Below the pieces are notes generated by a model. The model was not told the DNA's origin. It saw only the letters and a list, made by a program, of their open reading frames with translations, and made no database searches. From Pigoraptor vietnamica (lineage: Eukaryota > Opisthokonta > Filasterea): DNA of 64,000 bases. The position numbers and the translations under genes were made by a program. Where the stretch lies: positions 61,579 to 125,578 of the forward strand of contig CALSCQ010001242.1 in NCBI GenBank assembly GCA_943704525.1, written 5' to 3'. Within the stretch, counting starts at the first letter, position 1, and each line of letters starts with the position of its first letter. Positions 18,796 through 60,793 of the stretch are shown here, piece after piece.

Positions 18796-20030
18796 ATGCC
18801 CGAAATGGCAGCCAGCGGCGGTGCGAAGGAGGCGCCGTCGTCGGCCGCACTGCGCGCAAAGTACGAGGGCATATTTGCTGAAGGTGCGTCTGAGTCCGAG
18901 TTCGAGGGCGCACAAGTACACATATTGCAATTCTCTTTTTGGCGTGTGTGTGCGCGCGCGCGTGCGCGTGTGGGTATATGTGTGGGTGTGAGTGTGTGTG
19001 TGTGTGCGTGCGTGCGCGTGTGGGTGTATGTGTGGGTGTATGTGTGGGTGTGAGTGTGTGTGAGTGAGTGTGCGCGCGTGCGTGTGTGTGCATGCAGTAG
19101 TTCTGTGGTCGACTCACCTGCCTTTATTGATTGATTTCAGGGAGTGCGAACCCCGACCGCGTCCCCGCGCTCTTGGACGAACTGCGTCGCCTCGTGCTGC
19201 TCGAAGGCCTTCCCTCCGCGCCTGAAGACGCCGCCGCCATTCGCGGGACGCTGTGGATCATTCTCTTGCGCGTCCCGGCGGTCGATGCCGACGCCTACAT
19301 CGCGCTCGTGGAGAAGGGGAGGTCGGCCGTGTACGACAAAATTCGCAACGACACGTTTCGGACACTGAAGAGCGATGCCATGTTCCTGTCGCGCGTGAGC
19401 GAGGACAAGCTCATCCGCGTGCTCAACGCCTTCGCCAACGCGCACGCCGGCGGGAGTGCTGCGGAGCGGACGCCCCGCCTCCCACAGGCGCAGTTCTCGT
19501 ACGTGCAGGGGATGAACGTCCTCCTCGCGCCTCTCCTCTACGTTATGCCGGAAGTGACCGCCTTCTTCGCGTTCGACACACTCCTCACGCTGCACTGCCC
19601 CACGTACGTTCAGCCGACGCTCGCCGGCGCGCACGCGGGGTGTCGCCTCCTCGATCAATGCCTGCAGTCCGTCGACCCGGAGCTGTTTGCGCATCTCCAC
19701 TCGAAATCGCTTTCCGCGGAAGTGTACGCGCTCTCCCCCGTCCTGACGCTGTCGGCGGCAATTCCGCCCCTCGACGAGGTCCTCAAGCTTTGGGACTTCG
19801 TGTTTGCGTTTGGCGCGCACGTGGCCGTCCTCTGCGTGCTCGCGCAGTTTGTGGCGATGCGCGAGCAGCTGCTTGCGAGTTCCACACCCATGAAGCTGCT
19901 GCAGAAGCCGCCGGACCTCGACGCGCGCAAGACGATTCGCATTGCGACGTCCATGGCACGACAGCTGCCCGAGGGACTGTACGACGCACTCACGCGGCAC
20001 ACGTACGAGGAAGTGCGGCCAGGGCGCTGA
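18796..20030 (+). CDS. Bub2/Cdc16-like TBC-domain GAP
   Basis: Predicted GTPase-activating protein of the Bub2 class, which in yeasts forms a two-part GAP restraining mitotic exit or septation signalling. Exons 18796-18883 and 19141-20030; 325 aa, matching Bub2 (about 300). The TBC domain fills the protein. Readable motifs: LRRLVLLEGLP, IRGTLWIILLRVP, the arginine-finger motif KIRNDTFRTLKSDAMF, LIRVLNAFANAH, the glutamine-finger motif FSYVQGMNVLLAPLLY, and DPELFAHLHSKSLSAEVYAL followed by KLWDFVFAFG. The order and spacing follow Bub2/Cdc16 rather than other TBC families. Both catalytic residues are retained. The intron is filled by imperfect GT repeats. Whether a Bfa1/Byr4 partner exists cannot be seen here. 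Confidence 0.82.
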
Positions 20031-22505: not shown

Positions 22506-25500
22506 TCATCGTTTGGCAATGAACGGCACGAGCAGTTCGTCCCAAAACACGACGAGCGTCTGCAGCACCTGCGCGGGGCCGTCGTCGTCCTCTTCGTCAA
22601 ACAGCACCGAGTCGTCGTGGTACACCTGCCGGGGCGATGGGGTTTCAGAGGTTAGCGGAATTGACAAGAAATGAAACGCACAGCAAACTACGTACGTTGG
22701 CCTCTGTAAGCGAGCCCAGCAGTGGCGACGCGAAAATACGGCCGAGCTCCTTGAGTGTTTCGACCGTCGGACTCCGCTCGTACACGTACTGGCGCAAGAA
22801 GCCGACGAGGAAGGCAAGCACGGAGCGGTTTCGCGGCTGCATGTGCGACAACACGTCAATGTACGCTTCACGCGTCCGCGACTCGCGCCAGCCGTCCTTC
22901 GTGCCCTCAGCGAAAATGTCGGTGACTTGTGCGGCCTCGAGGATCCCGCTGTAGACGCCCACGCCGACGGGAACGGGGAGGCACAGCAAAAAGTGCCGAA
23001 GGAACGCCAGGGCCACGTCGGGCGTGTACTCCTGCGATATCTCAAAGGTTTCGTCCTTGCGCCTGTCAAACATGATGCGCAGGTGGTTGACCTGCGTCCC
23101 GACGTCGCCCCCGTCGCCGCCGTGGCGCTTGAGCGCGGCGATGAGCTGCGAGAAACCCTCGGGAAGACTCTGCGGATTCATGCGGCCGCGTTCCGCCATG
23201 TATCGCTCCACCGCGTCGCACGCGCGCGGAATTTCAGACTTCTCGCGCAACAGCGTCTCGTCGAGAGCCACGCCAAAGGGCACAATCTTCTTCTTGCGGA
23301 GGGAGGAGGCGCCCTTGCCTTGCGACCGCGAGAGCGTCCCTTCCGAGTCCGGGGGATCCGTGATGCTGCGCGGGCGCTGCAGAAAACAAAGACAGACACC
23401 AGAGTCAAATCGACAGCCCCGAGGACAACTGCCGGGCTTTCTCCCGCACTCACCGGAAGCAGCGTGTCGCTTGCGCTGCGCATGAGCTCCTTCTGAGCGA
23501 TCGTCTTGCGGTTGACCGCGTCCTGGATGTCGCCGTTCTCCGAGATGATGCTGCCGCGCTTCGCTAGATTTTCTTGCAGGTTGAGGCCCGTCAGGCTCGA
23601 GCTTCGTCGCAGCGACATGGCCGCCAGGTTGCGCACCGACGCACGCCGCGTCACGACGCTGTCCGCGCGGCCCGTGTTTTGCGTGCGGGGAACGATGAGC
23701 GCAACCGCTTCGGGCAGAACGAAAATCTTTGCGGGGAGCGCGCCTAGCATTTCTCCGTCCGCCTCGATCGCGAGCTTGGCGCCGTCCTTGCCAATGCCCT
23801 CGACGACGACGCTCGTCCCTCGCACGAGGTGGACGTTCTTATCGCTCGTGATTTGGTCGCCGCGGCGGATGAGGTTCGATACACGCGACGCCTCCAGCAT
23901 GGACACGTCCTCGAGAAGTACAATGTCAAACTGGCCGTCCGTCATGCACGCATCGATGGCGACCTCAAAGCCGCCAGAGTACCGCCCGTTGCAGATGAGC
24001 AGCTCAAACATGTTGCAGTTCATCCACTCCGAGTCGTCGATTTTCAGGCGCGTGGCGCGGTTGTTGGCCTTGCTACCGTGCGTGACCGACTGCAGAAGCA
24101 ACGACGCCCGTCCGACGAGCGCGCGGTTCGCCAGGTCCGTCAGGCGCGTGCTTTCCGTTCCGACGGAACACACGTTGAGGAAATAGCGGTCGCGCTGGGG
24201 AAGACCGCCCCTCTCCGGTGCTTGGACTACGCCGACGTCCGTCAGCGCGACCATCCCGTCAAACACGCACGCGAGGGCGTCGAGCGGGTCGGTGGGGATG
24301 TTGACCGTCTTGACAAAGTCGTCGTTGTCGCCGATCGGAATGATCCCGAAGGGGATACGACGCGTGCCGCCGCCCTGCGCGCCATCGAGCCGTTTTAAGA
24401 TGCGGCACGCACACAAATCCAGCACACACACGCAGAATGATCGACATTCCAGTAAGAAAGCACACACACACAAGTGACTGAGCAACACACGTAAAGACAC
24501 ACTCATACGCTCACACGCGCAAACACGGGTATCCTCACAGCGGTGACGCACCTCCGAGAGGTACCCCTCGAGCGCCTGGTTCACCGTAATCCCATTGCCA
24601 ACAATCACAATCGCGTCGTAATTCTTCTGCACTGCGAGCGCCGCCTTTTGCGCGGCCGTTGTGCGGTACTGCATCACGTTGGCGCCCGCCTTTCCCGCCT
24701 TCGGCCCTTGGTCCTCGAACGTCTCTTCCGTGATCATAAACGCCGTCCACGTGAGCTCGCCGAAGAGCTCCTTCACGCGCTCCAGCAACTTCTGCGCCCA
24801 CACCTGCGTACCGAAGGGAAGGGAAACCACGTGCTTCGAGCGTGAGACACTCAACATGGAGACAGCACACAGAATAAGCGAAGAAGCGCATCGCCGTGTC
24901 GGGCGTCAAACTAGGAGGATATGAAAAACACGGCCGAATTTCAACAGTAACTGGCGCGCGCATGCAGAGCAACCGAGCAGCGAACCCACCTTGGACGCCT
25001 TCTTCACGAGCGTATCGATGATGAACGCGATGCGGCGCGTGTTCTCCAACGGCTCCGCGGCGTTGCGCGGCTCAATGATGAGCGACTTCTTGTAGCAGTC
25101 CTGCTCGGTGAGGTTGCCCTTGCCAATCTCTTCCAGCTTGCTCCGCAGCACCGGCACGACGGCAAAGTTGTACGGCGTCTGCTGGTACTGCAGCATGTCG
25201 GTGAGCACGGCGCTGATCATTCGACGCTTCGTGAAGTTGATCAGGTCGGTCCCCGGCAGGCAGTTCGGGTTGCCGTCGCGGATAAACGTGAGGTCCGTCA
25301 TGTAGATGCCGATGTAGGGAATGCACGGCGGGTTGATGCTCGCGATGAGCTTGCGGTAGTCGCGCGAGTTGTTCGTGTTCGATGTCAGCGCGACGAGCTC
25401 CTCGAACCGCTCCTTATGTGCCGTCGGGACGACCGTCCACGTGTGCTTGAGGCGGTGCACGGGCGCCGACTGCAGCGACGAGATGATCTCATACAGGCCG

Positions 25501-26957
25501 TTGAAGTTGTTGAGCTCAAAGCAGCACTCGGCAATGTCTATCAGCTTCGTGAGAACCTCCTTGCGCGTCTGCAGCGTCGTGCGGCTGACAATCTGCGTCG
25601 TCGCCCACATGCTCGTCACGTTGAAGCGATCGATGAACCTAACGATCGGGCTCGCGTTCTCCGCGCTCGTGTTGCACGCGAGTTCGCTCAGGTCGTGCGG
25701 GCTGATCGACCGGTACAGCTCGTACTCGATCAGCGTCATCTGCCGCGCGATCTCCATCGGGTGGAAGTTCATGATGTCCAGACCCTCCAGCTTCACCTTG
25801 AGCCCCGCGACCGTCCCGTCGTCCTGAAGCATCGGCAGGATCGGAATGGGCTGGTTCTGGCTCTCGATCGACTCCTTCTTGCGCTCAACGCCGCCGCTGG
25901 CGCTGCTGACCGTCGACGGCGAGGGCGAGGGGGGCGGCACGAGGTCCCCCGGGCTGTTGTCGTCGCTTCGCCGCCGCTCGTCGCCCTTGCCGTTGGTCCT
26001 CGAGAGGTGCTTGGACTCGGCCTCGTCGATTCGCAGCTTCAAAATCCGCTTCATGTTCGGCCGCACCTCCGACGACCCCGACGACGACGGCTCCATGGGG
26101 ATCTGCTCGTCCGGCAGCGAGTCGAGGAAGGCGCGCAGCGTCTGCAGAAGCGCGGGGTCCTCCGCAAAGTCGTCAAAGTGCTGCTCGACCCATCGCTTGA
26201 TCACGTTGAGCACGCGGAGCTTGATTGGCGCGGCGATCTTCTTCGCAAACTCGTCCGCCCTGTCGTTGCTCTTCGGCGTGCCAATGTTGTAGCGCGCGAT
26301 GAGCAGCTGCAGCAGTTCCTCCGGCTTCGAAAACGTCCGAAACGTGAGGAGAAACTGCCGCTGAAAGTTGTGGTCCGTGTACTCGTCGTACGTCAGGCGC
26401 TCGACGAGCTTCAGCTTGGACGCGCCCTTCACGCGCGGCGTCCCCGAGCCGTCGTCGTCCTCGAGAACGATGTTGGTGATCGAGTCCGGCACGCTGAACA
26501 TGTACGGGGGATCCATCGCGCAGTACCGCAGCGGCTCGAGCACGGCCGCCTTCTTCTTCTCGTCGCGCAGGATGCGTAGGTACGTTCGCTCGCGGTCGAG
26601 CTGCTCCATTCGCTGGTGAATCTCAACGGGCGGGTCGAATATGTCCGACACTTGGTTGCCGAGCTCGTTGAGCGCGTCCGTCTTGGCCTGCATCTCGCGC
26701 TCGAGGGCTTCCAGGGTCATGTTGCGATAGATGGCCCGCTGCTCGTCCGACACGACCGAGCGCTTCGTGTCGTCATCGCCCTTCGACGTCTTTCGAGTCA
26801 CCTGCGGGCACTCGCCGCCCGCCGTGCTTATGCGGTCCTTCTTCGAATTTCCGCGCACGAGGCGACTTTCGCGCGGACTGTCGGGCGGCTGCGGCACATT
26901 CGACGACTTGCGCGAGTTACCGCGGCTCAGCGGCGGCTTAGCCCCCGACTCCGACAT
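22506..26957 (-). CDS. Predicted RasGEF / lipid-kinase-like / RhoGAP-like fusion protein
   Basis: Five minus exons: 24990-26957, 24552-24833, 23454-24374, 22696-23376, 22506-22625, all phase 0; 1323 aa. Exon 1: RasGEF_N (about 180-300, QRQFLLTFRTFSKPEELL) and the CDC25 catalytic domain (about 389-640, FHPMEIARQMTLIEYELYRSI, MDGNPNCLPG-type segment, FTKRRMISAVL). Exons 2-3: a diacylglycerol/sphingosine kinase-type fold, VGNGITVNQALEGYL, FGIIPIGDNDDFVKTVNIP, YFLNVCSVGTESTRL, LICNGRYSGGFEVAIDA, TDGQFDIVLLE. Its nucleotide-loop motifs depart from GGDGT and GTGND, so activity is doubtful. Exon 4: RhoGAP-like, PFGVALDETLL, IPRACDAVERYMAERG, ALKRHGG, ALAFLRHFLLCLPVPVG. The kinase-to-RhoGAP splice is well supported because the frame changes. 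The RasGEF-to-kinase junction uses a weak acceptor, and an ATG at 24857 would allow a separate second gene. Confidence 0.68.
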
Positions 26958-28475
26958 CTTCCCACACGCGCGCCTTGACGCGCCGGTCGCAAGCGGCGCT
27001 CAAGTGTGCAGCGGAAAGGGCAAGTAGGCGATGTCGCAACACGCGGCGTCGCCCCTTTTGGCCGCCGCACCAATAGCGACAGTCAGCCTACGGGAGCCAT
27101 GCGAGGTGCGTCGAGAGATTCGTTTCGCGCGCGAGTGAGAGTGTGCCCCTTACTGAGGCGAGCGGCCTGTGGAAGTCGTATGCGGTGTCCCGATGGCCAC
27201 GAGAGCGTCTCTCGGCGAGTGCAACTTGAGCGGAGAATAAAATCGCCGGCGAGCGACGCTACGCACAATACGCCGCGCCAACCCAAAACACACGTTCAAA
27301 CAGAGCAAGCAAGAGCACAGCACCGACGGCCTTCCTACAGCAGCAACCAGAGTAGGAGAGGGAATGTGACTTGAGCATGTGTTTTTGCGATGCATACAAA
27401 AAAAGTAGCCACTCCGCAGGCACGGCCACACGTACACAGGGAGCGTTCTCGGGGCTCTCGATTTAAGAACATTCGTAAATTTGGCAAATTTTGTGATCGC
27501 GTTCCAATATATTCTTCGTACGCGAAGGGGAGGCTCGACCAATCACAGGCCGCCATTGCAATATTGGTTTTGCGGCCGGGGACGAGCGGCCGGCACCCTT
27601 ATTATTTGATTATTTGAATTTCAACCGCGTTACAGCTGCCTGACGCTTCAGTCGAGCACCTTGTTGCAAGCGAAACGCAGCGCCATGGCGCGCAGAGTAA
27701 CACGTTCGCTCATGTCAATTTCATCCCCGGAACAGTCAAATCAGCCGCCGTAGAATCCGGCGGTGTTCAGGCTGACTGTCAGGCACGGCCGGTGCCGGCG
27801 GAATAGACGTTTCTCACTCTGAAATTTACAGCGACGGTGCAAATTTACATGTCGGGCGTTTCTGTATGCTCTAGATTACATTTTTCAGCCACGGCTTCGA
27901 TTCTTAATGAACAATGTCTGATGGGTCGACCAGCACCTGAGTGATCGGTTCTTGTCGCGAATAAATGGCACCCTTCAGTAAGAAAAAGGCAGCATAGGAC
28001 ATTTGAGTTCGACATAGCCTTTTACCGCCTGTTACTTCGTTACATTCGGCACGTGACACATCTTAAAGACCGGCGACTTCCGATTGGTCCGCCTGTTGCT
28101 ACGGTGACAGAGAGCGTGGTCCATTGCGTCGCGCGTAACCCCAACCCCACATTACACACGTCGTTGCCACCCCTCACGATGCGCCCAAACGCGGGTTAGA
28201 TTCAATACAATTTCATATAGTGCTATTGGCGCATCATGAGCCCATCGAACAATAAACACCGGTGACAGGTGAAACCGGCCCGCAGAGACTGTTCCCGCCA
28301 CGTCGTGTGAAGCGCACACAGGGCTTACGAAGAGAAGACCCCATTGCCGCCTTAGATCACGGTTCGCAGGAGGCCCCTTTTGCACTCGCTTGGCTGCGAA
28401 GGGAGAAGAAAGCGGCATCGGTTGCGTCGGGCAAAAAAAAAAAAAAACTAGAGTTGCGTCATTCGCACCGTCAAC
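26958..28475. promoter_or_regulatory. Long divergent intergenic region with CCAAT boxes and an X-box-like site
   Basis: 1.5 kb between the outward starts of the RasGEF fusion and the RD3-like gene. It has AT-rich patches (27450-27620, 27820-28030), inverted CCAAT elements (attgg at 27550s and 28083-28087), and at 28095-28108 a sequence that on minus reads GTCACC-GT-AGCAAC, matching the RFX X-box consensus. An A run (28434-28447) lies just before the RD3-like start. No ORF with recognisable similarity. Confidence 0.45.
28095..28108 (-). promoter_or_regulatory. X-box (RFX-type) motif
   Basis: On minus: GTCACC, 2-nt spacer, AGCAAC, a full match to GTNRCC(N0-3)RGYAAC. It is about 370 bp upstream of the RD3-like start and next to an inverted CCAAT box. 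A match this degenerate is expected about once per 65 kb by chance, so function is unproven. Confidence 0.3.
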
Positions 28476-29186
28476 ATGTTCGAGTCGCTGACCCAGTGGG
28501 CGTATGGGGAGCCCGCCTTGGACCCCAACTCGCCGGCGCGGTTGGCTGCGTCGCGGCAAGACATCATCCGTGACGAGGTGCAGTGCTGCATCCAGGACGT
28601 GGAAGACGCGCTCCACGAGAGGGCCAAGGAGGAGCGTCGCCGCGTGAGCAAGGTCGACTACAGCTGGCTCTTTCCCGAGGAGCGCAAGCGGTACGCGATG
28701 CCCGCCTCCATTTCCGTGCGTCTCGCGGAGCTGGCCGCTCGCTTGAACGGGGAGGAGTGCACGGCGTGCGTGGGACAGTTTCGACGCATGGTAGAGGGCA
28801 TCGAGGACGTCGAGCGCATCGCGGACGTGATGCTGTGCATCATGGAAAAGACGCTTGCCGACCGCCCTGCAGACCCGCAGTCGACGTCGTGGCGTCCTGT
28901 GGCACTCCTCCGGCGCGCGAGCCAGAGCGGTCTCAACGGCGTCATGTCGCCGGAGTGGGCCGACTACGTGCGTGCGAACATCACGAGCGTCAAGCAGGCC
29001 GCCGTCGCTCCCATCGGCACCATCAAGCGCCGTCTCTCGCAGTCGCTCTCGTCTTCGTCGATCGGGTCCCTCTCGTTGCCTTCCACCGTGGACCACGTGA
29101 GCGATCTGAGCGCGACTTACTACGACGTCGACGACCTCTCGCCGCCGCCGATCATCACCGGGCGCCTCGAAGAGCTTCCCATTTGA
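28476..29186 (+). CDS. RD3 (retinal degeneration 3) family protein
   Basis: Single exon, 236 aa; ATG at 28476 follows an A run. The core 30-125 resembles RD3/RD3L: a helix rich in Glu/Arg (HERAKEERRRVSKVDYSWL), where VDYSWL is the family hallmark, then PASISVRLAELAARLNGEEC, then CVGQFRRMVEGIEDVERIADV, matching the RD3 pattern of C..ai.+FR..l.....V..v..lF. Vertebrate RD3 binds and inhibits retinal membrane guanylyl cyclase and assists its trafficking. In this organism the partner could be another guanylyl cyclase, which is inference. The last 80 residues are Ser-rich and not conserved with animal RD3. Confidence 0.68.
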   Translation: MFESLTQWAYGEPALDPNSPARLAASRQDIIRDEVQCCIQDVEDALHERAKEERRRVSKVDYSWLFPEERKRYAMPASISVRLAELAARLNGEECTACVGQFRRMVEGIEDVERIADVMLCIMEKTLADRPADPQSTSWRPVALLRRASQSGLNGVMSPEWADYVRANITSVKQAAVAPIGTIKRRLSQSLSSSSIGSLSLPSTVDHVSDLSATYYDVDDLSPPPIITGRLEELPI

Positions 29187-53771: not shown

Positions 53772-55755
53772 TTACACGTAAAATGACTGCTCTTGCACGT
53801 CCTGCGCGGGCGAAGTCGGAACTGGTTCGCTTGGCTGCTGTGGAGGCGGCTGCGGCGCGGACTGTTGCTGGGGAGCACCGCCGGGCTGTTGCTGCACAAG
53901 CACAAGGGCCGGCTGCGGTGCGTGCTGTTGCTGGATGGCGCTGGGCTGCTGCACGACAATAGGTTGCGGCGCAAATTGTAGCAGGGGAGCGCTACCGTCG
54001 GGCTGCTGCGCGTACTGCTGCTGGGGCGCAGGCTGGAGCACGTAGAACACCTGCGGCGCCGTGTTGCCGCCGGGTTGCGCGTATTGCAGCACGTACTGTT
54101 GGGGGACGGGGTTGGCGACCGGCTGTTGACCCTGTGGCGCGTTCGGCTGCTGGGGAGCATTGTGAATCGCCTGCGGTGCGACTTGCTGTGAAGGGACGTT
54201 GCCGCTGGGCTGTGCGTATTGCAGCACGTACTGCTGTGGGACGGGGTTGCCGACCGGCTGTTGAACCTGGGGAGCGTTTCGTTGCTGCGAAGCGTTGCCG
54301 AACGTTGATTGCTCGGGAGGGACGTTGCCGCCGGGCTGCGCGTACTGCAAGACGTACTGCTGTGGAGCGGCGTTGACCACCTGCGGCCCCTGTGGCGCGC
54401 TCTGCTGTTGGGGAGCCGCCACCATGACGTACTGCTGCGGAGCGGCGTTGCCGACGAACTGCTGACCCTGTGGCGCGTGTTGCGGCAGCGGTTGCGGCGG
54501 ACCTTGCGGAGCGTAATATGACTGCGGCATTGGGCCCTGCGGCGCGTAATACAGCTGGGCAGCGTTGCCGCCGACACCCTGCGGCGCGTACTGCCGCTGC
54601 TGCTGAGCCATTGGCGCGTACGCCTGTTGCGGGGCGTTGACGACCTGCTGGGGGATGTAGTGCTGCGGCGGGGCCCCATAAGGCTGCGCTTGAGCCACGG
54701 GCTGCACGCTTATCGCCACCGGCGCCGGCGCCGTCTGCGGTTGCGCGGGCGCGTATGACGACAGGGTTGCGCGCGCGTCGATCACAACGCCGGCTTTCTG
54801 CCCGCGCCGTGCCTTGACCTCGCGAATGTCCTGGCAGATAGCGCACGGACCGAGGCAGCAGAGGTTACGGAGATCTTCGGTCCAGGGCACGCCCAGGTGG
54901 AAAGCGCGGCGAACTCGTAGTCGCAACATGGCTATTGCGACGGACGGGCAGAGCAGTGCGACGCAGCAGAGAATAAAGTCGAACGGCCCGCCATCGACCT
55001 CCCCGCCGGCCTTGCCCATGGCGTACGGGTGGCACCCGCAGCACACCAGAATGCACGATTCGCCGTCGTCCGTGCAAGCTTCAATGTCCGACGAGTACGC
55101 GTTCGGCACGACCTTGCCGTCCGCACCGACGACGCCGTAGATGGGGTCCCAGTCGCCACGTGCATCCACCTCGCTAATGTCCTGCAGCGTCGCGAAGAGG
55201 GGACAGCAGCACACATAGCACATCGTAGCGACATCGTCCTCGCGAATGCTGTACTTCTCCTGCACGAGCATACGGAGACACCATCCGGCGAGGCATGGCG
55301 CCAACGAGGCCACGAGGAAGAAGTACCAGTCAAAGTACGTGCCCTGGACGTCTCCGGCGGCCTTCGCGACCATATAATGGTACGCGCAGCACGTGCAGCA
55401 GCACAGTCCACCGTCAATATCCTCGGCGCAAAATTCGTACGTGTACGCGCCGTTTGCGGGCGGCTTCGTCGACTTACTCAGCAGGCGCACGATAGGGAGC
55501 GGTTGCGCGTCCAGGTTTGTGACCACCGCTTCGCTGGGGCGCGCGCTTGGGACGGCCACCATGGCCACGCTGTCGTTCGCGACGAGTCCATCGTTGGAAG
55601 AAGACACTGCTGTTTGTCAGGGGGCGAGAGATGCGGGTTAGCACACTTCCTCGAAACCAGCTGTCATAGGCGCGTTCGGGCCGGGTAGATCCCTGTTGAC
55701 TCCGCGAGGGCCAGTGCACGCAAACAGCGTCACACTCACCGCTCCCTCTCTCCAT
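53772..55755 (-). CDS. Double-PLAC8 cysteine-rich protein with Q/P/A-rich t tail (copy A)
   Basis: Minus exons 55740-55755 and 53772-55609; about 617 aa. Two PLAC8-type modules in tandem: module 1 has GLCCCTCCAYHYMVAKAAG, a hydrophobic hairpin, then MCYVCCCPLFATLQDISEV; module 2 has SCILVCCGCHPYAMGKAGG, DFILCCVALLCPSVAIAML, then LCCLGPCAICQDIREV. PLAC8 proteins are Cys-rich membrane-associated proteins, plant members affecting cell size and metal resistance; function here is not deducible. The C-terminal ~300 residues consist of degenerate repeats rich in QQYVLQYAQPGGN and APQGQQ-like units and are probably disordered. The exon 2 acceptor is a tandem NAGNAG (aacagcag) giving proteins with or without one Ala. 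It is the inverted paralogue of the gene at 57214-59088. Confidence 0.8.
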
Positions 55756-57070: not shown

Positions 57071-57213
57071 GCGCAGTTTCACTCGTGACTCTGAGTCCCA
57101 CGTGTGACACTTCGGACAACAACTAACAAATTGTATGTTGACCGGCACGCTTTTCAGGCCTATCTAGCGTTTCGTCATCCAACGATGGGCTTGTCGACTC
57201 CAACGTCGGAGCC

Positions 57214-59088
57214 ATGGCGGCCATCATCCCCAGCGCGCACGGCGGCGAAGCGCCGGCGGTGTACGAGACCGCACAACAGGGTGCGATCGTGCGCTTGCCG
57301 AGAAAGTCGACGAAGCCGCCCACAGACGGCGCGTACACGTACGATCTGTGCGCCGAGGATGTTGACGGTGCATTGTGCTGTTGTACGTGCTGCGCGTACC
57401 ATTATATGGTCGCGAAGGCCGCCGGAGACATCCAGGGCACGTACTTTGACTGGTTCATGTTTGCCGTGGCCTCGTGCATGGCGCCGTGCATCGCGGGGTG
57501 GTTTCTGCGTTCGAGCGTGCAGCGCAAGTACGGCATTCGCGAGGAGCCCCTCGTCACGATGTGCGTGGCGTGCTGCTGTCCCCTCTGCGCAACGCTTCAG
57601 GACATTCGCGAGGCGGATGTCCACGGCGACTGGGACCCCGTCTACGGCGTCGTCGGTGCGGACGGCAAGGTCGTGCCGAACGCGTACACGTCGGACCTGT
57701 GCGCTTGCACCGACGACCCCGAGTCGTGCATTCTGGTGTGCTGCGGGTGCCACCCGTACGCCATGGGCAAGGCCGGCGGGGAGGTCGATGGCGGGCCGTT
57801 CGACTTCATTCTCTGCTGCGTCGCGCTGTTCTGCCCGTTGGTCGCGATGGTCATGTTGCGGCTGCGCGTTCGCCGCGCTTTCCAGCTGGGCGAGCGCTGG
57901 ACGGACTCGCTTGAACGCATGCTCTGCTGCACGGGTCCGTGCGCTATCTGCCAGGACGTCCGCGAGGTCAACACACGGCGCGGGCGGAAAGCCGGCGTCA
58001 CGATCGACACGCGCGCAACCCTGTCGTCGTACGCACCCGCGCAACCGCAGACGGCGCCGGCGCCGGCGGCGATAAGCGCGCAGCCGGTGGCTCAACCGCA
58101 GCCGTACGGGGTCCCGCCGCCGCAGTACATCCCGCTGCACGTCGTCAACGCCCCGCAACAGGCGTACGCGCCAATGGCTCAGCAGCAGCCACAGTACGCG
58201 CCGCAGGGTGTCGGCGGCAACGCTGCCCAGTTGTATTACGCGCCGCAGGGCCCAATGCCGCAGTCATATTACGCTCCGCAAGGTCAGCCGCAACCGCTTC
58301 CGCAACACGCGCCACAGGGTCTACAGCTCGTCGGCAACGCCGCTCCGCAGCAATACGTCATGGTGGCGGCTCCCCAGCAGCAGGCCGCGCCTCAGGGACA
58401 GCAGGTGGTCGCCGCTCCTCAGCAGTACGTCCTGCAGTACGCGCAGCCTGGCGCCAACGTCCCTCCCGAGCAATCAACGTTCGGCAACGCTTCGCAGCAA
58501 CAAAACGCTCCCCAGGTTCAACAGCCGGTCGGCAACCCCATCCCACTACAGTACGTGCTGCAGTACGCGCAGCCCAGCGGCAACGTCCCTCCACAGCAAT
58601 TTGTGGCCCAGTCGAGCGTCGGCGACGCTGCTCAGCAGCAGTACGTGCCGCAACAGTACTACGTGATTGCGCTGCCGAGCGGTAGCGCTCCCCTCCCGCA
58701 ATTCGCGCCGCTCCAACAACAGTTCGCGCAGCCGGCGGCCGACGTGCCGCAGACCGCCCAGCAACCGGCCATCCAGCAGCTATTCGCGCAACCCGCCGGC
58801 AGCGCTCCTTCGTCGCAGATTGTTTCTCAGCCGAGTGCCGACGCCGTCGAGTCGCAGTTCGTGCAGTACGCCGTGCTGGACTTCCAGCAACCGCGCAATG
58901 CGGCACTGCAGAACGCGCAGCAACAGCCAAACGCGCCGCAAGGACAGTCCGGCGAACCCACGTCGCCGTACGTGCTTCAGGTCCCCAGTGACGGTCAACA
59001 AGTGTCCGGCGTGTTCTCCGTTTCACAGCCGGGGATCGCGAGCCCACAGGACGCGCAACCACAGGGAGTCGCCGAGGGGACGCAGTAG
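57214..59088 (+). CDS. Double-PLAC8 cysteine-rich protein with Q/P/A-rich tail (copy B)
   Basis: 624 aa from ATG 57214 (MAAIIPSAHGGEAP). Collinear with copy A: STKPPTDGAYTYDLCAEDVDG, module 1 LCCCTCCAYHYMVAKAAGD and CVACCCPLCATLQDIREAD, module 2 SCILVCCGCHPYAMGKAGGE, RLRVRRAFQLGERW, LCCTGPCAICQDVREVN, then the ATLSSYAPAQPQ linker and a repetitive Gln/Pro/Ala tail. The tails share unit types but differ in number and order. Similarity to copy A starts upstream of this ATG (GTTTCGTCATCCAACGATGG), so the real N-terminus is probably longer: acceptor cag at 57155-57157 opens GC-CTA-TCT-AGC in phase with the four-TM gene's donor. No separate first exon like that of copy A is visible. Confidence 0.78.
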   Translation: MAAIIPSAHGGEAPAVYETAQQGAIVRLPRKSTKPPTDGAYTYDLCAEDVDGALCCCTCCAYHYMVAKAAGDIQGTYFDWFMFAVASCMAPCIAGWFLRSSVQRKYGIREEPLVTMCVACCCPLCATLQDIREADVHGDWDPVYGVVGADGKVVPNAYTSDLCACTDDPESCILVCCGCHPYAMGKAGGEVDGGPFDFILCCVALFCPLVAMVMLRLRVRRAFQLGERWTDSLERMLCCTGPCAICQDVREVNTRRGRKAGVTIDTRATLSSYAPAQPQTAPAPAAISAQPVAQPQPYGVPPPQYIPLHVVNAPQQAYAPMAQQQPQYAPQGVGGNAAQLYYAPQGPMPQSYYAPQGQPQPLPQHAPQGLQLVGNAAPQQYVMVAAPQQQAAPQGQQVVAAPQQYVLQYAQPGANVPPEQSTFGNASQQQNAPQVQQPVGNPIPLQYVLQYAQPSGNVPPQQFVAQSSVGDAAQQQYVPQQYYVIALPSGSAPLPQFAPLQQQFAQPAADVPQTAQQPAIQQLFAQPAGSAPSSQIVSQPSADAVESQFVQYAVLDFQQPRNAALQNAQQQPNAPQGQSGEPTSPYVLQVPSDGQQVSGVFSVSQPGIASPQDAQPQGVAEGTQ

Positions 59089-59344
59089 CGCCGGCGACCA
59101 CCACCGACCGCTTTTTTCGTCGGCAGGCGATGCTCACTCGTGTACTCCTCTTCGGTCGTCCTCGCTGCGTCATGCTGTTATGCCATCGCGTGGATGCGCA
59201 TGTGGGAAAAAAAAAAAACTTGAAAAACAGTAGGTTGTAACACGCAACCAAGTTGTAACAATGGCCCCGATGGTAGGTCACACGCTTTCACCTTTCGTAC
59301 ATAACTCAGCTGGGGAGTGCGACATTCACTTGAGCGACGGCAAA

Positions 59345-60793
59345 ATGCTGCGACCTTTCGCCACTGCTCGCGCTCTTTTTCCACGCGCATACAGAGCAGC
59401 ATGTCTTGTGCGTGGGACGTGCGGCGCTGCATCCGAGAGTGTGGCCGTGTCGGGCGTGCGCGTACCCCTCCCACCAGAGCTTCTTCCCGGCGCGGGCAAG
59501 GGAAAGCGCGTGGTTGTGGGCGTCTCCGGAGGCGTGGACTCGTCCGTGTCGGCGCTTCTTCTGAAAAACGCCGGTTACGATGTCGTCGGCGTGTTTATGC
59601 GGAATTGGGACGAGAAGGACGAGGGCGGGAGCGGCACGCGGTGCACGGCAAACGAGGACATGCGCAGCGCAAAAATCGCGTGCGACGCGATCGGCATCCC
59701 ACTCGACGTCGTTTCTTTCGTGCGCGATTATTGGTTGGATGTCTTTGAGCCGATGTTGCGGACGTTTGCGGACGGCATGACGCCGAACCCCGACATTCTA
59801 TGCAACGCGCACATTAAGTTCACGCGATTCTTCGACCACGCCGTCAACAAACTCGGCGCTGATTATGTCGCGACGGGCCATTATGCGCGCGTGCGTCGGC
59901 GCTCCGACGGACCGCCGCAACTACTTCGCGCCGTCGACGTCGACAAGGATCAGACGTTTTTCCTGTGCTGGGTCCCCGGTGCGTCTCTGGAGCGGGCGCT
60001 ATTTCCCGTCGGCCATCTGGAGAAGCCCGTCGTGCGCCTTCTTGCGCGACATTCGGGCCTCGTGCACGCGGCGGAGCGCCCCGAGAGCATGGGGATATGT
60101 TTTATTGGAAAGCGGTCGTTTTCGGACTTCATTTCCGAGTACATCCCTGACAAACCCGGCGAATTCGTGACGCTCGACGGGCGCGTAGTCGGGACGCATC
60201 GCGGCTTGCACCACTTCACGCTCGGACAGCGGTCGCGTCTCAGCGGCTTTTCGCGCCCCGTGTATGTTGCGTGGAAGGTCGTGCAGACGAACCGAGTGAT
60301 CGTGGTGGAGGGCAGCGACCACCCACTCATGCGCTCCGCCACGTTCACAACAACCGCGCCCGTTTGGGTCAACCCGTCGGACGTGTCTTCGGTGCTTGTA
60401 CGCAAGGAGCGCGCGGTCGGCGACGGTAGCGGCGGCGGCGCAGTGTTCGGCGCCGCAGAACACACCCGTCTAGCGATGCGCTTCCGCCACCTGGCGCCGC
60501 TGATGCCGTGTCGCGTATCTCTTCTGGAGGGGGATGAGGGCGGGCTTCTTGTGTGGACCGACGCACCGCTCGCGAGTTTAACGCCCGGGCAAGTCGCTGT
60601 GCTCTACGACGGCGACGTGTGTCTCGGCGGCGCAACAATTGCCGACATTGTGGAGCCGGAAATCGACGGCCGACTTCGACCATGGAGCGAAGTTGTGCGC
60701 GAGCACATGGACCGTGTGCGTGCCGAGGCAATCGCGAACATGTCGAAGCGACAGAGGAGACGGCTCGAGGACGAAGCCACGTCGGGTTTATGA
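59345..60793 (+). CDS. TRMU: tRNA-specific 2-thiouridylase, mitochondrial (TRMU/MnmA)
   Basis: Thiolates U34 of tRNAs for Lys, Glu and Gln; in eukaryotes it works in mitochondria. Intronless, 482 aa from ATG 59345, whose start (MLRPFATARALFPRAYRAA) is Arg-rich without acids, like a mitochondrial presequence; ATG 59261 is an upstream alternative. PP-loop VVGVSGGVDSSV (58-69), GVFMRNWDE, the first catalytic Cys in TPNPDILCNAHIKF, DYVATGHYARV, DKDQTFFLCWV, the second catalytic Cys in SMGICFIGKRSFSDFI, LHHFTLGQR, and a C-terminal beta-barrel ending TPGQVAVLYDGDVCLGGATI. All catalytic motifs are intact. Confidence 0.95.
   Translation: MLRPFATARALFPRAYRAACLVRGTCGAASESVAVSGVRVPLPPELLPGAGKGKRVVVGVSGGVDSSVSALLLKNAGYDVVGVFMRNWDEKDEGGSGTRCTANEDMRSAKIACDAIGIPLDVVSFVRDYWLDVFEPMLRTFADGMTPNPDILCNAHIKFTRFFDHAVNKLGADYVATGHYARVRRRSDGPPQLLRAVDVDKDQTFFLCWVPGASLERALFPVGHLEKPVVRLLARHSGLVHAAERPESMGICFIGKRSFSDFISEYIPDKPGEFVTLDGRVVGTHRGLHHFTLGQRSRLSGFSRPVYVAWKVVQTNRVIVVEGSDHPLMRSATFTTTAPVWVNPSDVSSVLVRKERAVGDGSGGGAVFGAAEHTRLAMRFRHLAPLMPCRVSLLEGDEGGLLVWTDAPLASLTPGQVAVLYDGDVCLGGATIADIVEPEIDGRLRPWSEVVREHMDRVRAEAIANMSKRQRRRLEDEATSGL

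Follow-up and report, generated by a model that had tools for sequence, protein, structure and literature searches.

A filasterean RasGEF fused to a bacterial-type lipid-kinase fold, with a RhoGAP-like tail

The subject of this report is a gene of the filasterean Pigoraptor vietnamica that lies on the minus strand of a 64,000-nucleotide stretch of genomic DNA (the window; C504:61579-125578; the eukaryotic genome measures 32.5 Mb in 1395 contigs). It is a real, single gene, and its predicted product of 1313 amino acids (aa) carries, in this order, a RasGEF module, a lipid-kinase fold and a RhoGAP-like tail. The fusion of the RasGEF with the kinase is settled at the level of sequence. The RasGEF module looks intact, and the kinase and the tail look pseudoenzyme-like. 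We class the protein among the multidomain RasGEFs, its partner domain being new.

The fusion is carried by a second gene. Profile searches of the genome gave 12 matches to DAGK_cat and 40 to RasGEF, and both domains are found on contig C1181, on the same strand and in the same order. The paralogue located there encodes 962 aa in 15 exons; all 14 introns run from GT to CAG, a count that follows from the exons having been chosen by eye. Its protein has the order RasGEF_N-RasGEF-lipid kinase, followed by a Ser-rich tail and the stop (Pfam E-values: RasGEF_N 2.1e-24, RasGEF 5.3e-59, DAGK_cat 7.4e-22 over profile positions 2-124 of 125, YegS_C 2.6e-10). BLASTP aligned residues 391-1071 of the window gene with residues 310-962 of the paralogue in one stretch (33.6% identity, 697 columns, E 5e-100); identical columns numbered 87/176 in the RasGEF, 23/55 in the RasGEF-kinase linker, 95/299 in the kinase and 22/97 in the region behind it. 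Since the paralogue is collinear across the junction, the fusion appears genuine rather than two misread neighbours. Moreover, the first kinase strand (RRIAFIIDTLVKKASK in the window gene, KRVAFIVNPTARGGKAGK in the paralogue) is encoded in exon 1 together with the RasGEF, ahead of intron 1, so that the RasGEF-kinase splice, which a first-pass annotation of this DNA had regarded as weak, lies inside the kinase domain. The strand KRVAFIVNPTARGGKAGK can be aligned with DgkB from its start on.

None of the introns of the two genes are at the same alignment column, and one of the two genes was remodelled in its introns. Many introns interrupt the paralogue locus (C1181:500-10400), and GT/CA simple repeats are abundant in several of them; the four introns of the window gene are placed elsewhere. 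When the whole genome was searched with the paralogue kinase, these two loci alone came up (eight matches at E <= 0.01, each on C1181 or C504). Within 9.9 kb at the YegS_C/DAGK_cat loci of C1124, C1284 and C700, neither a RasGEF nor a RhoGAP match to the query sequences reached E <= 0.01. Of the 14 other RasGEF contigs, six were scanned over 5.5-9.9 kb (two of these stretches being cut short where the contig ends), and neither kinase was matched there; the remaining eight were covered as short loci only. No relative turned up when viral contigs were scanned with an alignment of the two proteins. The nearest PDB sequence to the ADF/cofilin of this genome is actophorin, a likeness that would suit an amoebozoan but is no proof of one.

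The RasGEF_N (REM) domain is placed ahead of the CDC25 domain, as in RasGEF family exchange factors, and the CDC25 domain covers profile positions 1-181 of 181 with 198.4 bits against a curated cut-off of 23.1. When exon 1 was searched against PDB, SOS2 and SOS1 were the closest of 28 distinct sequences at E <= 1e-5; the SOS entries, which were matched with RasGEF_N included, lie between 1.5e-75 (SOS2, the best) and 4.9e-73. The SINPPC-P-GIY-T region, which we take to be the catalytic hairpin of the exchange factor, aligns well with SOS2, and an SLxIEPRN linker behind the GEF is common to the SOS proteins and exon 1. SOS proteins have DH, PH and histone domains. The window protein, in contrast, has no Pfam match to any of these up to E 1, and a lipid-kinase fold follows its GEF instead. 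The module looks intact and SOS-like, so that activation of a Ras or Rap GTPase can fairly be expected of it. The first-pass annotation had proposed that Ras activation is coupled to a lipid-binding module and to Rho inactivation; the Ras part gains partial support and Rho inactivation is not upheld.

The kinase domain consists of two Pfam parts, DAGK_cat (aa 694-789, E 3e-9, 37.0 bits, cut-off 23.6) and YegS_C (aa 825-967, E 8.3e-17, 61.8 bits, cut-off 27), and the same two-part fold is present in the paralogue. Its best PDB matches are to bacterial DgkB-type proteins (4wer 3.3e-18, 2qv7 3.9e-15), with acylglycerol kinase at E 0.18. Against the NCBIfam bacterial lipid kinases the best match had E 1.5e-29 (102.9 bits vs a cut-off of 274), and none of the ten NCBIfam lipid kinase families listed was matched above its own cut-off. 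Judged from these comparisons, the domain is nearest to the bacterial DgkB/YegS-type proteins. An animal-type diacylglycerol kinase (DGK) or sphingosine kinase was rejected for the window gene on the PDB matches, and also for the paralogue, where acylglycerol kinase (2.7e-5) and sphingosine kinase 1 (4.7e-4) are far behind DgkB (1.8e-19). The diacylglycerol/sphingosine-kinase-type fold of the first reading is corrected accordingly. The soluble bacterial kinases DgkB, YegS and BmrU resemble the window kinase over the whole domain, but the latter sits in a eukaryotic fusion and has altered GGDGT and GTxNDF motifs.

The aspartate of GGDGT has a role in lipid kinase catalysis. GGDG[T/S] is found in all seven bacterial relatives; in its place stand GNGIT in the window gene and GGGGT in the paralogue. 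The second motif, GTxND(F/L), is complete in six of the seven relatives and its asparagine is present in all of them. Within the genome the GGDGT aspartate is kept in 9/9 other DAGK_cat loci (eight GGDG, one SGDG); ten contigs with a DAGK_cat locus were examined besides the window's own, the tenth being that of the C1181 paralogue with GGGG. Because this aspartate is lost, a working kinase is doubtful, and the domain looks pseudoenzyme-like, more surely so than the GAP. Alternatively, the kinase of the same fusion could be active and phosphorylate diacylglycerol or some other lipid next to the RasGEF. This would amount to a local feedback such as separate DGK and RasGRP proteins provide in mammals, where DGKs restrain diacylglycerol-driven RasGRP1 in T cells (PMC5103287). 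It would be in line with this that the fold is kept over both Pfam parts, that the C-terminal DGE and the preceding DG are retained (both genes have DGE; of the seven bacterial rows, two end before the motif and the other five have DGE or DGD), and that the paralogue retains NPTARGGKAG and almost the whole DAGK_cat profile. Nevertheless, we consider an active kinase unlikely, given that the GGDGT aspartate is lost and GTxNDF is altered in both genes.

The profile searches that had been suggested as a check at the first reading matched RasGEF_N, RasGEF, DAGK_cat and YegS_C, and the RhoGAP match was weak and sub-threshold. RhoGAP is the sole Pfam match for the tail among those listed up to E 10 (aa 1141-1267). 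It scored 20.9 bits (E 3.5e-4) in the whole protein and 23.9 bits (E 4.3e-5) on exon 4 alone, against a curated cut-off of 24.5, and reached 24.8 bits in the genome search solely with the frame neighbours included. A profile built from five RhoGAP domains, retained out of eight stretches of the same genome, gave 18.6 bits on the tail; none of 2000 shuffles scored as high (best 14.6). The RhoGAP match is thus weak but above chance. A genome search with the RhoGAP part found the window's own exons only.

The arginine-finger motif G[ILM][FY]R was not found in the RhoGAP-like part, and the profile match begins just past the motif position. The motif is present in 6/8 other RhoGAP stretches of the genome; the one on C787 has GFAR and the one on C897 is too short. 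In addition, the LK motif has Arg instead of Lys, and LReLP has Leu instead of its R. As the finger motif is missing and the match starts beyond it, Rho inactivation, as claimed at the first reading, is unsupported, and the tail looks pseudoenzyme-like, less surely than the kinase. The arginine of an LKRHGG sequence (23116-23133), 15 residues ahead of the LR where the profile match begins, could be a displaced finger. With this arginine in the finger's role, the protein might combine a working RasGEF, a lipid module and a working RhoGAP, and couple Ras activation to Rho inactivation; the above-chance homology would fit, as would the proteins already known to combine RasGEF with RhoGAP homology (PMC1273635). 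This we regard as quite improbable, since the alignment to the RhoGAPs of the same genome begins only past the finger, both the LK and LReLP positions are changed and the finger motif itself is missing.

We give about an even chance to the reading that the 1313-aa protein is an exchange factor in which an active RasGEF is controlled by a pseudokinase that binds lipid or nucleotide, and which has a Rho- or partner-binding tail. The SOS-like module would act on a GTPase of the Ras or Rap type. Attached directly to the end of this module, the kinase fold would have lost phosphotransfer (GGDGT to GNGIT, GTxNDF to GDNDDF) and may now bind lipid or nucleotide so as to bring the GEF to the membrane or to gate it. 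The tail would bind to a GTPase of the Rho family, or to some other partner, with no acceleration of GTP hydrolysis, and the whole protein would couple the lipid state of the membrane, perhaps together with Rho-GTP, to Ras activation. A wider proposal is more tentative and has, in our view, less than an even chance: the two genes may represent a new class of Ras exchange factors, in which a bacterial-type kinase joined to an SOS-like GEF became a lipid- or nucleotide-sensing pseudokinase that switches the GEF; the gene would have been duplicated, and a Rho-binding tail derived from a RhoGAP would have been acquired by one copy or else lost from the other.

Several points weigh against the regulated exchange factor as described. 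The loss of kinase activity is read from motifs, both genes retain the DGE, and catalysis could rely on another residue; likewise, the exon structure is a gene model built from sequence alone. For the tail, the RhoGAP matches of both the spliced protein and exon 4 are under the Pfam cut-off, and a PDB search with this part gave a single match up to E 1 (ARHGAP15, E 0.63). RhoGAP was not found in the paralogue protein or in its 9.9-kb locus, so conservation between the two genes does not extend to the third part. AlphaFold models made without an alignment had a mean predicted local distance difference test score (pLDDT) of 45 for exon 4 and of 30 for exons 2-3 with intron 2 read through, and are uninformative; Foldseek with the exon 4 model returned 222 matches at E <= 10, none of them at E <= 0.001, with no RhoGAP among the best 50 of the 222.

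The coupling of Ras exchange factors to lipids commonly runs through PH or C1 domains. If the proposed regulation is true, a lipid-kinase fold with its catalysis apparently lost would be a new route that couples lipid state to Ras, and small-GTPase signalling would gain further pseudoenzymes. The occurrence of the RasGEF-kinase pairing in two paralogues makes the lipid-coupling idea testable.

The gene opens at ATG 26957 and its stop ends at 22506. Each of the five exons is a multiple of three, and the four introns all run from GT to CAG with phase-0 junctions ( Table 1 ); the frame, order and coordinates of consecutive minus-strand exons were right at the first reading. The GC content at third codon positions (GC3) is 0.90, 0.85, 0.83, 0.83 and 0.80 in exons 1-5 and 0.58, 0.56, 0.56 and 0.52 in introns 1-4. 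GC3 thus splits exons from introns without recourse to homology and marks intron 2 as an intron despite the lack of a stop. This intron (24551-24375) is easily read through; its retention would lengthen the kinase fold by 59 residues, a short way past the degenerate GGDGT motif. The weak acceptor cgaag that had been assigned to the RasGEF-kinase splice was misplaced and is rejected, as a normal CAG acceptor is present at 24804 (tacgCAG; pyrimidine-rich ttcccttcggtacgCAG).

The link between kinase and RhoGAP-like region rests on GC3 and on a good 77-bp intron, the splice that had been called strong. In the RhoGAP frame, an ATG first occurs at residue 60 of exon 4 (23199), upstream of the Pfam-matched stretch, so the domain alone is compatible with a separate start; the 59 exon 4 codons that precede it have a GC3 of 0.83, like coding sequence here, and contain no earlier ATG in frame. 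Together with the paralogue, which has the same RasGEF-kinase fusion, the intron and the GC3 values bear out the claim of one polypeptide with this order of parts.

Two adjacent genes had been offered as the alternative, i.e. a RasGEF that ends within intron 1 (stop 24906) and a kinase-RhoGAP gene that starts at ATG 24857, which is in frame with exon 2. This is very unlikely and we reject it, because collinearity with the paralogue extends across the junction, the first kinase strand is encoded in the same exon as the RasGEF, GC3 is intron-like (0.58) between 24989 and 24804, and a proper CAG acceptor stands behind a pyrimidine-rich tract. An assembly chimera or a pseudogene, which the fragmentation of the assembly might suggest, has a negligible chance in view of 1313 open codons, high GC3 in every exon and a RasGEF-kinase fusion that recurs on a second contig, where the introns all fall at other alignment columns.

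Table 1. Parts of the RasGEF-fusion gene in window coordinates.
Feature	Position	Strand	Details
Exon 1, 656 aa	24990..26957	-	Ser-rich N terminus, RasGEF_N, RasGEF, linker, first kinase strand (paralogue alignment)
RasGEF_N, aa 176-277	26127..26432	-	Pfam PF00618 1.1e-27, 96.7 bits vs cut-off 28.3
RasGEF/CDC25, aa 402-579	25221..25754	-	Pfam PF00617 1.2e-58
DgkB/YegS-type lipid-kinase domain, ~aa 641-970	23685..25037	-	spans exons 1-3
Exon 1 donor GTGGGT	24989	-	
Intron 1, 186 bp	24804..24989	-	GTGGGT...tacgCAG; holds alternative ATG 24857
Exon 2, 84 aa	24552..24803	-	part of kinase fold including degenerate GGDGT motif
GNGIT replacing family GGDGT motif	24585..24599	-	alignment with bacterial relatives
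Intron 2, 177 bp	24375..24551	-	GTGCGT...gcgCAG; in frame, stop-free
Exon 3, 307 aa	23454..24374	-	remaining kinase fold (YegS_C) and Ser/Arg-rich linker
GDNDDF replacing family GTxND(F/L)	24315..24332	-	paralogue: GENDDF
Intron 3, 77 bp	23377..23453	-	GTGAGT...ttctgCAG
Exon 4, 227 aa	22696..23376	-	RhoGAP-like region; Pfam match 22717-23097
Intron 4, 70 bp	22626..22695	-	GTACGT...ggCAG
Exon 5, 39 aa and stop	22506..22625	-	C-terminal end

Dictyostelium GflB is a GEF with a RhoGAP domain and is not known to have a lipid kinase. In PMC1273635 the gene gflB is listed only as a RasGEF-homology gene, and it differs from the window gene in having no RasGEF_N according to that source. The same source describes RasGEF and RhoGAP homology in a single protein for Dictyostelium RasGEFD and yeast Bem2, a likeness to the window protein; it names no lipid-kinase domain for either, a difference that compares descriptions rather than sequences. 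The mammalian pair of RasGRP1 and DGK-alpha/zeta is similar in that a RasGEF is tied to diacylglycerol and its kinase, as described in PMC5103287, but these are separate proteins and their DGKs are active enzymes. No RasGEF with a lipid-kinase domain was found in searches of open-access papers, a weak absence as most subscription papers fall outside that scope. The statement of the first-pass annotation that no protein with this order had been described is not contradicted by that literature, although the combination of RasGEF and RhoGAP in one protein is already known (PMC1273635).

The window holds further genes. A RabGAP-TBC domain ORF at 19131-20027 (+; E 3.6e-33) is another small-GTPase regulator close to the RasGEF gene. 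Divergent from the latter is a 244-aa ORF at 28452-29183 (+) that matches RD3 (retinal degeneration 3; profile positions 23-125 of 129, E 6.1e-16). RD3 is known as an animal family, and its occurrence in a protist is unexpected. Two long divergent ORFs with PLAC8 domains are found at 53775-55616 (-) and 57142-59085 (+), and a protein with the three tRNA_Me_trans domains (best 4.2e-73), presumably of the tRNA 2-thiouridylase type, is encoded at 59234-60790 (+).

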